Of a stretch of DNA of 64,000 nucleotides, positions 5,710 through 41,702 are shown one piece after another (within the stretch, counting starts at the first letter, position 1; the number at the start of each line of letters is the position of its first letter). The stretch is taken from assembly GCF_900103985.1 (NCBI RefSeq), contig NZ_FNIE01000005.1, positions 1-64,000 of the forward strand. The letters run 5' to 3'. The notes under the pieces were generated by a model that was given only the letters and a program-made list of their open reading frames with translations, made no database searches and was not told where the DNA came from. The stretch is from Actinacidiphila guanduensis. GTDB taxonomy: Bacteria; Actinomycetota; Actinomycetes; Streptomycetales; Streptomycetaceae. A program made the position numbers and the translations under genes.

Positions 5710-6744
5710 CTAGGGGAGGGTAACGACCGTGGCGGCGTAGACCAGACCCGCCCCGAACCCGATGACCAGGGCCGTGTCGCCGCTCTTGGCCGCGCCCGTG
5801 GCCAGCAGCCGCTCCATCGCCAGCGGGATGGAGGCCGCCGAGGTGTTGCCGGTGGTCTCGATGTCGCGGGCGACGGCCACGTGCTCGGGCAGCTTGAGCG
5901 CCTTGATCATCGAGTCGATGATCCGCATGTTCGCCTGGTGCGGGATGAACGCGTCCAGGTCGGCGGCGCTGACCCCGGCGGCGTCCAGCGCCTCCTGGGC
6001 GACCCGCGCCATCTCGTACACCGCCCAGCGGAAGACCGCCTGGCCCTCCTGCGTGAGCGCCGGGAAGACCACCGCGCCGTTCTCGTCCACCGGCAGCTTC
6101 GCGACGTCGTCCACGCGGAAGGCGTCCCACGGCACGGTCTGCGTGATCGTGCCGGACTTGTCGCCCTCCGAACCCCAGACCGTGGGGCCTATCGCGGGCA
6201 CGTCGGACGGGCCGAGGACGACCGCGCCGGCGCCGTCGCCGAACAGGAACGCGGTGGCGCGGTCCTTCTTGTCGGTGAGGTCGCTCAGCCGCTCCACGCC
6301 GATCACCAGCACGTACTTGGCGGTGCCGTCGGTGATCATGCCCTTGCCGAGGGTCAGGCCGTAGGTGAAACCGGCGCAGCCCGCGGAGATGTCGAACGCG
6401 GCCGGCCGGCCGGTGCCCAGCCGGTGCGCGATCTCGGTCGCGACAGCCGGGGTCTGCTTGAAGTGCGAGACGGTCGCCACCACCACCGCGTCGATCTCGT
6501 CGGCGGAGATCCCGGCGTCGGCGATGGCCTTGCCGCCGGCCTCGATCGACATCTCGGCCACGGTCTCCTCGGGACCGGCCCAGTGCCGCGAGGCGATCCC
6601 GGACCGGGACCGGATCCACTCGTCGCTGGAGTCGATGTTCTCGAGGATGACCTCGTTGGGTACCACGCGGACCGGGCGGTAGCCGCCCACTCCGATGATC
6701 CGCGCGTACGTCGCGCCCTTGCTGGGGGTGATCTTCGCTGTCAT
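5710..6744 (-). CDS. fabH: Beta-ketoacyl-ACP synthase III
   Basis: A 344-aa initiating condensing enzyme; it joins an acyl-CoA starter with malonyl-ACP. The triad is visible: Cys123 in SAGCAGF, His in FIPHQANMR and Asn in ETTGNTSAAS. In streptomycetes the family accepts branched starters (isobutyryl-, anteiso-methylbutyryl-CoA), which sets the iso/anteiso lipids; specificity is inferred from the genus. The ATG at 6744 overlaps the stop codon of fabD by ATGA, so translation of the two is probably coupled. Confidence 0.96.
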   Translation of the reverse strand: MTAKITPSKGATYARIIGVGGYRPVRVVPNEVILENIDSSDEWIRSRSGIASRHWAGPEETVAEMSIEAGGKAIADAGISADEIDAVVVATVSHFKQTPAVATEIAHRLGTGRPAAFDISAGCAGFTYGLTLGKGMITDGTAKYVLVIGVERLSDLTDKKDRATAFLFGDGAGAVVLGPSDVPAIGPTVWGSEGDKSGTITQTVPWDAFRVDDVAKLPVDENGAVVFPALTQEGQAVFRWAVYEMARVAQEALDAAGVSAADLDAFIPHQANMRIIDSMIKALKLPEHVAVARDIETTGNTSAASIPLAMERLLATGAAKSGDTALVIGFGAGLVYAATVVTLP

Positions 6745-7724
6745 CGCTGCGGTGGCTCCTCTTCGGCTTCCTGCACTCGGACGTGCGCCGGACCCGCGGC
6801 CTCGGCGGCGAGCGCGCGGGCCGCGTCGAGGTCGTCGGGCGTCTTCAGCGCGAGGGTGCGGACCCCGGACAGTGCCCGCTTGGCCAGTCCGACCAGAGTG
6901 CCGCCCGGCGCCACCTCGATGACCGCGGTGACCCCGCGCTGTTCGAAGGTCTGCATGCACAGGTCCCAGCGAACCGGGTTGGACACCTGGACGACGAGCC
7001 TGCGGACGACCTCCGTGCCCGTGTCCACCGTCTGCCCGTCGGCGTTGGAGACATACGGCAGGACCGGGTCGCTCGCGCCGAGGGTGGGCGCCAGCGCCTC
7101 CAGTGTGGCCACCGCGGGCGCCATGTGCGAGGTGTGGAACGCACCCGCGACCTTCAACGGCATCACGCGGGTCTTCTCGGGCTTGTCGGCGCTGAGCGCG
7201 GCCAGCTGCTCCACCGTGCCGGCGGCCACGATCTGGCCGGCGCCGTTGATGTTCGCCGGGGTCAGGCCGAGCCCGGCGAGGTGGGCGAGCACCGCGTCGG
7301 GGTCGCCGCCGAGGACCGCGGACATGCCGGTCTGCGTGACGGCGGCGGCCTCGGCCATCGCCCGCCCTCGGGCGGCCACGAAGGTCAGTGCGTCCTGCTC
7401 GGAGAGGACCCCGGCCAGCACGGCCGCGGTGATCTCGCCGACGCTGTGGCCGGCCACCGCGCCGGGGGCGTGGGCGCTGCCCGCACCGGTGATGCCGAGC
7501 GCGTCGGCCGACAGCAGGCCGGCGGCCACCAGCAGGGGCTGGGCGACCTTGGTGTCGCGGATCTCCTCCGCGTCCGCCTTGGTGCCGTAGTGGACGAGGT
7601 CGAGTCCGACCGTGTCGGACCACGCCGCGACGCGGTCGGCCACGCCGGGCAGTTCGAGCCAGGGGTTCAGGAAGCCGGGGGTCTGGGCACCTTGGCCAGG
7701 AGCGACGAGTACGAGCACAATCAC
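6741..7724 (-). CDS. fabD: Malonyl-CoA:ACP transacylase
   Basis: A 327-aa acyltransferase that loads malonate onto ACP for fatty acid synthesis and, in streptomycetes, often also onto polyketide ACPs. It shows GQGAQ near the N-terminus, the nucleophile Ser94 in AGHSVGE and a conserved His in GAFHTSHM. GTG at 7724 and GTG at 7718 both fit; a GAGAGAG purine run just upstream could serve either. It is the first gene of the operon. The 84-bp gap behind it, down to fasR, carries the operon promoter. Confidence 0.95.
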   Translation of the reverse strand: MIVLVLVAPGQGAQTPGFLNPWLELPGVADRVAAWSDTVGLDLVHYGTKADAEEIRDTKVAQPLLVAAGLLSADALGITGAGSAHAPGAVAGHSVGEITAAVLAGVLSEQDALTFVAARGRAMAEAAAVTQTGMSAVLGGDPDAVLAHLAGLGLTPANINGAGQIVAAGTVEQLAALSADKPEKTRVMPLKVAGAFHTSHMAPAVATLEALAPTLGASDPVLPYVSNADGQTVDTGTEVVRRLVVQVSNPVRWDLCMQTFEQRGVTAVIEVAPGGTLVGLAKRALSGVRTLALKTPDDLDAARALAAEAAGPAHVRVQEAEEEPPQR

Positions 7725-7808: not shown

Positions 7809-9011
7809 TCAGCGGGCGCGTTCGGACTCCGAGAGCCGGCCCAGGATGAGCGCGATGCGCAGGGTGAACGCCGAACGGACATCGGAGGGTGACCACCCGG
7901 TGACATCGGTCACACGTCGCAGCCGGTAGCGAACGGTATTGGGGTGGACGAAGAGCATCCTGGCCGCGCCTTCCAGCGAGGAGGCCTGTTCCAGGTAGAC
8001 ACTCAGCGTCTCCAGCAGGGCGGAGCCTGCCTCTTCCAACGGCCTGTAGATCTCCTCCACCAACTGGTCGCGGGCATAACGGTCCCCGGCCATCGCGCGC
8101 TCCGGCAGGAGATCGTCGGAGAGTACCGGGCGCGGCGCGTCCGGCCACGCGCGGCACGCCCGCAGGCCCGCCGCTGCCGCCTGGGCGGACCTGGTGGCCG
8201 ACAGCAGGTCGCCGACGACCGGGCCCGCCACCACGGGTCCCGGCGCGAACGGGCCGATCAGCGCCTTGGCGACGCGGATCGGGTCGTCGTCCCCGCCCGC
8301 CACCACCACCAGCCGTTCGCCGAGCACCCCGGTGAGCACCTGGAGCTTGGCGTGCCGGGAGGCGCGGCGGATCGCCTCCACGGTCAGCTCGCTGTCGCCG
8401 TTGGGCGCGGTGCCGAGCACCACCACGATCTTGTCCGGGGAGTTCCAGCCGAGCGCGGCCGCCCGGGAGAGCACGCCCTCGTCGGCCTCGCCGGAGAGCA
8501 CCGCGTTGACCACCAGCGACTCCAGGCGTGCGTCCCAGGCGCCGCGGGCCTCGGCGGCCTGGGCGTAGACCTGGGCGGTGGCGAAGGCGATCTCGCGGGC
8601 GTAGACCAGCAGGGCCTCGCGCAGCACGCTCTCGTCGCCGGGGGCGGCCACGTCGTCGATGGCCGCCTCCATCACCTCGATCGTGGTGCGCACCATCTCC
8701 ACGGTCTGGCGCAGCGAGATCGCCCGGGTCAGCTCGCGCGGGGCGGTGCCGAAGACGTCGGTGCTGATCGCCTGCGGGGCCTCCGGGCGGCGGAACCACT
8801 CGGTGAAGGCGGCGATACCGGCCTGTGCGACCAGGCCGATCCAACTGCGGTTCTCCGGGGGCATCGCCCGGTACCACGGCAGCGTCTCGTCCATCCGCGC
8901 GATGGCGTGCGCGGCCAGCCGCCCCGCGGACTTCTCCAGGCGGCGCAGCGTCGCCGTACGGTCACCGCGCTCCGGCACGGCGGGATGGGGCTTCTGCGAG
9001 GGTTCGGGCAC
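7809..9011 (-). CDS. fasR: PucR-type activator of fatty acid synthesis genes
   Basis: A 400-aa regulator just upstream of fabD in the same direction. The N-terminal three quarters form the sensor part (GGDEF-like/PucR architecture), and the C-terminus holds the PucR helix-turn-helix (SLEGAARMLFVHPNTVRYRLRR in substance, residues about 350-380). The S. coelicolor orthologue at this locus activates fabDHPF. The GTG at 9011 fits the conserved PEPSQKPHP N-terminus and is preceded by GGAGGG. A TAGGGT box ends 7 nt before the GTG, so a leaderless transcript is equally possible. That box touches the end of a MITE-like element. Confidence 0.92.
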   Translation of the reverse strand: MPEPSQKPHPAVPERGDRTATLRRLEKSAGRLAAHAIARMDETLPWYRAMPPENRSWIGLVAQAGIAAFTEWFRRPEAPQAISTDVFGTAPRELTRAISLRQTVEMVRTTIEVMEAAIDDVAAPGDESVLREALLVYAREIAFATAQVYAQAAEARGAWDARLESLVVNAVLSGEADEGVLSRAAALGWNSPDKIVVVLGTAPNGDSELTVEAIRRASRHAKLQVLTGVLGERLVVVAGGDDDPIRVAKALIGPFAPGPVVAGPVVGDLLSATRSAQAAAAGLRACRAWPDAPRPVLSDDLLPERAMAGDRYARDQLVEEIYRPLEEAGSALLETLSVYLEQASSLEGAARMLFVHPNTVRYRLRRVTDVTGWSPSDVRSAFTLRIALILGRLSESERAR

Positions 9012-9024
9012 GCCCTCCACCCTA

Positions 9025-9198
9025 GGGCCTGCCCGGCAAACATCGTCTGGGCGGTGGGGCCTGGCACGCACTCTCGCTGCGTTGTCGGTCGTCGGCGCAG
9101 CCCGCTGCGCTCTCCTCCCTCCGCCTTGCGACAGCACGCCCCAGACCCCACCGCCCCCCGCCCTCACGGGCGGACGACGCTGTTTGCCGGGCAGGCCC
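9025..9198. mobile_element. MITE-like element with 23-bp terminal inverted repeats
   Basis: The 174-bp segment starts at 9025 with GGGCCTGCCCGGCAAACATCG and ends at 9198 with its complement; the 23-bp ends match at all but one position. Inner arms are also partly complementary (GGCGGTGGGGCCTGG against a GGCGGTGGGGTCTGG complement), so the whole can fold into one long hairpin. It encodes no plausible protein. No target-site duplication is obvious. It fills most of the gap between fasR and the pirin gene. Confidence 0.6.
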
Positions 9199-9248
9199 CG
9201 GGGTCCCTTTTCGTGACGGGGCGCCCCCGGTGAACACGGCTTCCGGGG

Positions 9249-9959
9249 TCAGCCGTACGACGGTTCGGCGTGCATCTCCCAGACCGCGTACTCGGCGTCC
9301 TGGGTGGCGGGTTGGGCGTGCAGGGCGGGGGCGTGGCCGGCGCGCAGGGCGTCGCCCGGGGCGAGGGTGTCGGGGCCGACCCGGAGGGTGCCGCGGATCA
9401 CGTGCAGGTAGAGGAAGGGCGCCTCGGGCAGGGCGGCGGCGCCGCGGCCGACGTGGAGGGTGGCCGCGGCCTGGCGCAGCCGCAGCGGCGCGGGGCTGTC
9501 CGGGTCGCCGGAGACGAGCGGGTGCAGGCCCGGCCCCGGCGGCAGGGCTGCGGGCGCGGCCGCGTACCGGGGCGGGCCGCCGAAGGCGTCGGGGTGCAGC
9601 CACATCTGCAGGAACCGCAAAGGCTCTCCGCCCGGGTTGCGCTCCACGTGCCGCACCCCGCCGCCCGCGCCGAGCAGTTGGGCGCCGCCCGCCCGCAGCC
9701 GCGTGGCGCGGCCGTCCTCGCCGCGGTGCTCCAACTCGCCCTCGAGCACGAGCGAGACGATCTCGGTGTCCCGGTGCGGATGCTCGGCGAAGCCCGCGCC
9801 GGGGGCCAACTGCTCCTCGTTGCAGGCCAGCAGCAGCCCGAAGCGGGTGTTGTCCGGGTCGTAGAAACCCGCGAACGAGAAGGCGTGCAGCGTCCGGACG
9901 CCGGCCGCCGGGTCGCCGCCGCGGTAGCGCTCGCCGGCCCGCCGCACCGACACGCTCAT
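9249..9959 (-). CDS. Pirin family protein (bicupin)
   Basis: A 236-aa cupin-fold protein. The N-terminal cupin holds HPHRDTEIV, whose His residues with a later Glu and His form the metal site of pirins. The second cupin (about residues 150-236) is short and lacks clear ligands. Some family members oxidise quercetin, others act as iron-dependent regulators; neither can be chosen here. ATG at 9959 overlaps the stop of the upstream serine hydrolase by ATGA, so the two form a coupled unit. Confidence 0.82.
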   Translation of the reverse strand: MSVSVRRAGERYRGGDPAAGVRTLHAFSFAGFYDPDNTRFGLLLACNEEQLAPGAGFAEHPHRDTEIVSLVLEGELEHRGEDGRATRLRAGGAQLLGAGGGVRHVERNPGGEPLRFLQMWLHPDAFGGPPRYAAAPAALPPGPGLHPLVSGDPDSPAPLRLRQAAATLHVGRGAAALPEAPFLYLHVIRGTLRVGPDTLAPGDALRAGHAPALHAQPATQDAEYAVWEMHAEPSYG

Positions 9960-40286: not shown

Positions 40287-41702
40287 TCAGCGCCAGTTGG
40301 CCACGTTCACGTTCTCCAGCACGCCCAGCGCGTCCGGCACCAGCACGGCCGCCGAGAAGTACGTGCTCACCAGGTAGCTGATGACGGCCTTCTCGTCGAT
40401 GCCCATGAAGCGGACGTTGAGCCCGGGCTCGTACTCGTCCGGAAGGCCGGTCTGGTTGAGGCCGATCACGCCCTGGTTGTCCTCGCCGGTGCGGATGGCG
40501 ATGATCGAGCTGGTGCGGGCCGGCGAGATCGGGATCTTGTTGCAGCTGAGGATCGGCACCCCGCGCCAGGCCGGCACGGTGGAGCCGAGTACCTCGACCG
40601 GGTCGGGGTAGACGCCCGCGCGCGTCCACTCGCGGCCGATCGCCGCGATCGTCTTCGGGTGGGCGAGCAGGTAGCGGGTGCCGCGGCGGCGGCTGATCAG
40701 CTCGTCCAGGTCGTCCGGCAGCGGCGGCCCCGCGTGCGGCTGGAGCCGCTGCTCGTACTCCGCGTTGTGCAGCAGCCCGAACTCCCGGTTGTTGATCAGC
40801 TCGTGCTCCTGGCGTTCGCGCAACGCCTCGACGGTGAGCTTGAGTTGCTGCTCGGTCTGGTTCATCGGCTCGTTGTAGAGGTCGGCCACCCGGCTGTGCA
40901 CCCGCAGTACCGTCTGGGCGACGCTCAGTTCGTACTCGCGGGGGTTGGCGTCGTAGTCGGCGAAGGTGGCCGGCAGGGCGGGCTCGCCGCTGTGGCCCGA
41001 GGCCAGCTCGATGTCCGCCTCACCGCGCCGGTTCGCCCGCTGCCTGGGCAGGGAGCGCACCGCCTCCAGGTGCCCGCGCAGCGCGTCGGAGACACCGAGC
41101 AGGGACGACAGGGCGGTACGCGGCAGGGCGAGCACCGTGGTGGGGGTGGCCGCCTTCGCGGTGTACTCCCAGGTGCCGTCCCCGTCGAGCAGCGCCTGCT
41201 CGCCGAAGTGGTCGCCGTCGGCCAGGACGCCGAGCCGGGTCGCCTCCCCGTACGGACCCTCGCCGAGCTTTTCGACCTTGCCGTGCGCCACCAGGTAGAC
41301 GGTGTCGGCGCTCTCGCCGGCGTGTGCGATGACCTCGCCCGTGTCGAACTCGCGCTGCACGAACCGGTCGGCGAGCGCGGTGAGCGCCTCGACGTTGCCG
41401 AACGAGCGCAGCGCCGCCAGCTCGCCCAGTTCCTGCGGGATGACCCGGACCTCGGAGCCGGTCTTGACGAACGTCACCCGCCCGTCGCCCACCGCGTAGC
41501 TGAGCCGCCGGTTCACCCGGTAGGTGCCCGAGTTCACCTGCACCCAGGGCAGCACCTTCAGCAGCCACCGCGAGGAGATGCCCTGCATCTGCGGGGCCGA
41601 CTTGGTGGTGGTGGCCAAGGTGCGCGCGGCGGCCGTGTCCAGGCTCGTACGCGCGTCCTGCGGATCGATGTGTGCGGCTTCCTGCCCCGCATCAACCGAC
41701 AT
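40287..41702 (-). CDS. Family 2B encapsulin nanocompartment shell protein with cyclic-nucleotide-binding insertion
   Basis: A 471-aa shell protein. Residues about 1-75 form the N-arm ([26 protein letters not shown]). Residues 85-205 are an inserted CNB domain, with a DHFGEQALL phosphate-binding cassette in which the usual cassette Arg is replaced (WEYTAKA). Residues 230-471 have the HK97-like fold ([31 protein letters not shown]). Family 2B shells usually sit beside terpene cyclase or polyprenyl transferase cargo genes; none is adjacent. ATG 41702 follows GGAAGGA. It is transcribed alone. Confidence 0.9.

Follow-up and report, generated by a model that had tools for sequence, protein, structure and literature searches.

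INTRODUCTION

The target duplication usually made by IS5 is reported as CTAG (PMC10379815), and CTAA or CTAG sites are described as flanking IS5 copies (PMC11677980). Among small non-autonomous elements, those of the Correia type affect transcription of adjoining genes; the review that covers them describes promoters inside the elements, and Streptomyces, actinobacteria and leaderless transcription are absent from its main text (PMC10969869). Another way in which an element can enter a promoter has been suggested for a member of the IS256 family in Paracoccus, a hybrid promoter with the -35 from the element and the -10 from the host (PMC3281130). In Streptomyces coelicolor, 21% of primary transcription start sites are reported to give leaderless mRNA, and NTGACC is the -35 motif of this organism that we used for scoring (PMC4895711). 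The activator of the fab operon is encoded by fasR (PMC7324645).

Here we analyse a window, by which we mean the whole stretch of 64,000 nt from Actinacidiphila guanduensis, in which a mobile element now lies in the predicted promoter of this activator of fatty-acid synthesis.

RESULTS

The repeat element and its family

Upstream of a fasR-like gene the window carries a MITE of 172 bp (positions 9026–9197, without assigned strand), palindromic over nearly its whole length as judged by copy comparison and fold. With at most 57 codons, a transposase gene would not fit. The terminal inverted repeat that faces fasR (9026–9047, plus strand) reads GGCCTGCCCGGCAAACATCGTC and the distal one (9176–9197, minus strand) reads GGCCTGCCCGGCAAACAGCGTC; the two ends are identical at 21 of 22 bases, or at 21 of 23 if the next base is counted, and a repeat search of the window reports the pair as 9019–9047/9176–9204 (29 nt, 90% identity). 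The borders were fixed from an alignment of 12 family copies together with a reading of copy borders, which places the start and the stop of the family at CTAG. On the gene side the target-site duplication CTAG occupies 9022–9025; the corresponding distal position, 9198–9201, reads CCGG today and is taken as a decayed CTAG. The sequence-only reading of this DNA had described a 174-bp element that ends at 9025, with 23-bp terminal repeats differing by one mismatch. The inverted repeat is confirmed and the size was about right, but its final base is already part of the duplicated CTAG, and the agreement of the ends is as given above.

The same reading had raised the question of other copies. They are numerous: 22 matches to the window element were found in its own genome, seven of which (the window copy among them) span most of the query, and of the 35 genomes available for the genus, with the own genome counted, 31 contain family matches at E-values up to 0.001, a limit that admits some weak ones. 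With up to three mismatches allowed, the end motif has 34 hits in the own genome vs none for a reversed-motif control; 24 of these hits form 12 pairs at distances of 69–292 bp, the other 10 are single, and no two of the 34 lie at an IS-like distance. CTAG is present on both sides in nine of the 12 own-genome copies for which both borders were read; the window copy, which is not among these 12, has CTAG on one side only. For the whole window element the predicted hairpin has an energy of -137.8 kcal/mol (z-score -12.6), equalled by none of 200 shuffled sequences. The 22 own-genome matches, the 34 vs 0 end-motif hits and the 0/200 outcome of the fold test confirm that the window element, a MITE, is real rather than a product of chance.

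The strength of the hairpin and the proximity of some copies to gene starts would also suit a structural or regulatory host repeat that never transposed as a MITE. We regard this explanation as extremely improbable: it leaves the CTAG duplications and the ends paired at 69–292 bp unexplained, it fits neither the many near-identical-ended copies in the congener G032 nor the IS5-family element that has these ends, and it is contradicted by the relatives' loci without the element (empty sites).

Two further observations concern the copies themselves. Across 13 copies (L138–L161 of the own genome and the window copy), the two ends of one copy are closer to each other than ends of different copies, with means of 0.92 vs 2.31 differences per 17 bases (permutation p about 0.0001), as if one arm had served to correct the other, or as if separate lineages had moved. 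In G032, many MITE copies have identical or nearly identical ends and fall into three size classes of about 71, 179 and 207 bp, and this genome also holds a likely autonomous IS5-type element alongside them.

An IS5-type partner in a congener

In the search for a partner, 20 unpaired ends were read inward (13 congeneric and seven of the own genome), and one of the 20 led to L193 in G032, an element about 1.28 kb long that has the ends of the MITE and CTAG at both sides. Its two transposase frames reach 134 and 162 bits with NF033580, the model of the IS5 family (cut-off 110), and the transposase also matches PF13340 and PF01609. Because its ends are common with those of L193, whose frames pass NF033580, the window element is, judged by sequence, a MITE of an IS5-type family. 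A CTAG-like 4-bp duplication is seen at L193 and at several related elements, and G027 and G034 contain CTAG-flanked relatives of L193 with slightly different ends.

In the own genome, none of the seven single ends that were read has a partner within about 2.6 kb inward, and none of the eight matches to PF13340 bears MITE ends. Only more distant IS5-type transposases are present there; a search of the assembly (33 contigs) with the G032 transposase gave one relative, 57% identical, whose inner end differs. The transposase with the same ends, envisaged in the sequence-only reading, has thus been found in a congener but not in the genome that carries the window. L169, a CTAG-flanked IS considered as an own-genome partner, was rejected; only CTAGGGCCTGT is common to both.

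The predicted fasR promoter

The fasR-like gene (7809–9011, minus strand; start taken from comparison with relatives) encodes a PucR-type C-terminal HTH and a GGDEF-like domain, and lies upstream of an open reading frame of the ORF listing (6741–7724, minus strand) which we take to be fabD-like. On the other side of the element lies a pirin-family gene (9249–9959, minus strand), co-directional with fasR. In the direction of fasR, the minus strand runs through the element end, CTAG, GGT, the 7-nt spacer GGAGGGC and the GTG start codon (9011–9009; spacer and start codon together 9009–9018). The hexamer TAGGGT (9024–9019, minus strand), already proposed as the -10 box of fasR from the letters of the sequence, followed by seven nucleotides and GTG, has the leaderless layout of a TANNNT box shortly before a start codon, and we retain it as the predicted -10 box, with the element inserted directly on it. 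A point missing from the earlier reading is that the TAG of TAGGGT is the duplicated target site; the GGT is host sequence. Since the box is 7 nt from the GTG, a leaderless fasR transcript is predicted, with its start at the GTG or 1–2 nt earlier.

Elsewhere in the window, positions 41155–41659 (plus strand) match Rfam RF02735 (Sernc350, an antisense RNA) with 160 bits, opposite an ORF of 471 aa that presumably encodes a cyclic-nucleotide-binding protein. Conservation of that coding sequence may account for the match.

The fasR site in relatives

Loci of fasR were collected from named species, the nearest of which belong to Actinacidiphila and Streptomyces, as well as from congeneric genomes, where 29 of 34 relatives were read; G008, G009, G013, G025 and G029 have fasR, and their loci were left out of the count. 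At all 29 congeneric loci a [TC]ANNNT box stands 6–7 nt before an in-frame GTG (TAGGCT in eight, TAACCT in one, CAGGCT or CAGTCT in 20). Because the box is there in 29 of 29 loci without this element, we conclude from the comparison that the fasR -10-like box is in all likelihood the host's own and older than the insertion. The exact target CTAG is something we infer rather than observe, since the box is C-initial (CANNNT) in 20 of the 29 and CTAGNNT occurs in none.

A blastn search of up to 700 nt upstream of 82 start-resolved fasR loci (the window counted, some genomes represented twice, and L051 and L119 searched over 177 and 381 nt) found the element in the window only, plus an end fragment at L133. 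At the remaining 28 of 110 fasR loci, which have no start anchor, the element was sought anywhere, and the result was a single weak inner match, at L068, about 1 kb before fasR. The site is therefore not fixed, a matter the sequence-only reading had left to a comparison with relatives: no examined relative has this element at fasR. The fragment at L133, in G020 of another clade, consists of about 30 nt resembling the distal MITE end, some 75–100 nt upstream of the fasR GTG, and is perhaps an independent decayed insertion.

In the fasR-region tree the window falls into one group with L129, L111, L112 and L114 (SH-aLRT 99), and the pirin gene is co-directional with fasR in all five. Once the element and one duplication are removed, the pirin–fasR gap of the window is 61 nt, vs 55, 55, 56 and 82 nt in these four sisters. 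When the two flanks are joined, they can be aligned to L129 over the point of insertion, an alignment equalled by 13 of 5000 shuffles. Of 15 relatives compared in this way, L129 (5 of 300 shuffles equal) and L121 (3 of 300) stand out, and the remaining 13 fall short of this (at least 23 of 300 equal). With 15 relatives tried, the agreement is modest, and it does not recover the ancestral site base by base. Many relatives have a conserved block like GATAAGGCAGGCTTG before fasR; it exceeds a -10 box in length and was not seen in the window.

The arrangement of the genes bears on a different explanation, in which fasR transcription has its main source at another place, such as read-through out of pirin, TAGGGT is incidental and the hairpin acts on the transcript through processing or attenuation. 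The co-directional pirin gene in the own genome and the four sisters suits such read-through, and as RNA the element would fold with the energy given above. Still, pirin is divergent in 23 of the 29 relatives and none was found in two more, all with the -10-like box in place, and the same box layout recurs at five further genes (see below), which makes this explanation quite improbable.

The same arrangement at other genes

Six of 16 own-genome copies lie on a TAGNNT box of the leaderless -10 type. Besides the fasR copy these are L143, L144, L159, L161 and L167, where TAGNNT is 6–7 nt from an ATG; the genes are presumably NAD-dependent-looking (L143 and L159), a methionyl-tRNA synthetase (L144), TatD-like (L161) and maleylpyruvate-isomerase-like (L167). 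Orthologues have TANNNT 6–8 nt before the start in 29 of 29 cases for L167 and four of four for L144; for L143 the box is present in all 10 readable of 11 orthologues (one locus stops short of the start), and for L161 in 27 of 29 (26 by script plus L318, with L300 and L304 uncounted). In the 700 nt upstream of these four genes, blastn with three versions of the element found it at the own-genome locus only, besides a single weak 34-nt match at L301.

CTAG itself is rare. In 463,770 sampled bases (own-genome stretches L231–L250 of G000 and the window) it was observed 97 times, vs 1137 expected from base composition, an approximately 12-fold depletion, and 14 of these 97 sites form TAGNNT 5–8 nt from an open ATG or GTG. 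With CTAG so rare and 14 of 97 sites leaderless -10-like, an element specific to CTAG would often meet such a box. The share among own copies (6/16) exceeds this background (14/97) with a one-sided Fisher p of 0.036, or 0.08 for 5/15 when the fasR copy is left out; these values are to be read with the box criterion having been chosen after the first examples were seen, and with L147, L163, L167 and the window tested on one side only vs both sides for the background CTAGs. Outside the own genome, none of 40 copies (26 from G032) lies on such a box, which is below the own-genome background (p = 0.002); this set omits places in G009, G013, G020, G024 and G027 and the G032 IS. Reading by eye, one of 78 ends outside the own genome (in G002) fits, vs four of 10 own ends. 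A general preference for leaderless promoters, considered as an explanation, was not upheld, given 0/40 elsewhere and the modest own-genome excess. Preference beyond background is no more than suggestive, and we read the recurrence as chance plus possible retention, not as proven preference. Five of the six junctions present the same element end, numbers too small to count as an orientation bias.

Two copies deserve further mention. At L280 (G014:C25:31644-31927) a gap of 3 bp separates a MITE copy, about 84 bp long, from a TAGAGT box, which is followed by the GTG of a protein we assume to be smc-like (VHLKSLTLRGFKSFA); this copy falls outside the strict box test. The methionyl-tRNA synthetase gene behind a 69-bp MITE (L144/L291, G000:C20:235255) has close matches (E-value up to 1e-80) in four of 34 other genomes, and may, to judge from this distribution, be a second or replaced type.

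Does the element bring a -35?

The matching -35 position had been placed inside the terminal repeat, and the mobile element had been proposed to supply half of the fasR promoter. The position is right in both respects: at 17-nt spacing the hexamer is GACGAT, within the terminal repeat. It matches TTGACA, however, at 0 of 6 bases. The best match to NTGACC at spacings of 16–19 nt is CAGACG (3 of 5, spacing 19), vs means of 2.35–2.47 of 5 for shuffled sequences; native fasR promoters average 2.13 and their shuffles 2.43 (78 rows, some genomes twice), and the six element/box junctions average 2.17 of 5. A scan for promoters of the E. coli type returned no promoter, and such a scan expects none in sequence of this kind anyway. 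As no -35 is visible in either the old or the new fasR promoter, and CAGACG is near shuffle level, the supply of a working -35 by the element is unsupported; the upstream half appears to have been displaced by the element rather than demonstrably supplied by it.

A regulator site in S. coelicolor is described as upstream of 'the -35 region' of sco2386 (fasR) and sco2390 (PMC7324645), wording which implies that its authors assume a -35 at fasR and which counts against a -35-less view. The position, moreover, fits a classical hybrid promoter, in which CAGACG at 19-nt spacing is a functional -35 joined to the host -10. CAGACG keeps the GAC of NTGACC and four of the other five junctions read CAGGCG, so the fasR copy is slightly better. 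Against such a promoter stand the absence of any matching base at 17 nt, a 3/5 match at 19 nt that is close to the shuffled means, and scores of 2/5 at the other five junctions; we consider it unlikely. For two of the other loci, native upstream sequence scores slightly above shuffles against NTGACC (2.66 vs 2.35, n = 29; 3.0 vs 2.47, n = 7), and insertion there may have taken out a weak -35.

DISCUSSION

The element and its family, the CTAG duplications, the ends common to it and an IS5-family element, and the relatives that lack the element but have a -10-like box can all be read from the DNA itself. With these in hand, we think it very probable that fasR already had a leaderless promoter, that a CTAG forming part of its -10 was the target of a non-autonomous MITE of the IS5 type, and that target duplication kept the box. 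The gene-side copy of CTAG would have left TAG beside the host GGT, preserving TAGGGT and its 7-nt distance to the GTG; the box would have survived because the target is duplicated on insertion. Host DNA upstream of the -10 would have been shifted 176 bp away, with the terminal repeat now filling the spacer and the -35 position. As no -35 is recognisable before or after the insertion, transcription would depend mainly on the -10. Accepting this course of events, we infer that TAGGGT works as the -10 of a leaderless fasR transcript and that CTAG was present before the insertion.

The insertion as reconstructed would follow a simple rule: the element enters a core promoter without destroying it, since the target itself is part of the -10 and is doubled on insertion. 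A broader proposal, which we put forward tentatively as a possibility that may well prove wrong, is that in this lineage MITEs of the CTAG-targeting family have, on repeated occasions, taken the place of the upstream half of leaderless promoters, CTAG being rare and concentrated in TAGNNT boxes and the box being rebuilt by duplication, and that insertions have been kept as permanent uniform upstream modules, as at fasR and the methionyl-tRNA synthetase gene. The five tested genes provide natural pairs with and without the element, which could tell how much of the sequence upstream of a leaderless -10 is dispensable.

A literature search over titles and the starts of abstracts found no Streptomyces MITE or CTAG insertion in a -10 box, though absence is not proven, and no case of a target duplication itself rebuilding a -10. 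The nearest described systems each share part of the arrangement. The locus resembles E. coli IS5 and the IS5 family in the four-base duplication, CTAG, and the partner transposase is of the IS5 family by NCBIfam; unlike E. coli IS5, the window element is a derivative of 172 bp that is not autonomous, its host is a high-GC actinomycete, and the CTAG lies inside a predicted -10. Correia elements and other promoter-bearing MITEs are likewise small, non-autonomous and situated directly upstream of genes, but Correia elements carry their own sigma-70-like promoters, whereas none is recognisable in the window element, which would have left the host -10 in place through target duplication. In IS-made hybrid promoters, too, a host -10 lies beside the insertion point and an element end takes the -35 position; those promoters have a -35 hexamer from the element, while at fasR no such hexamer can be recognised and it is the target itself that divides the box. 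With the leaderless promoters of Streptomyces the fasR promoter shares a TANNNT -10 shortly before the start codon (PMC4895711), and unlike them it has a transposable element as its upstream part.
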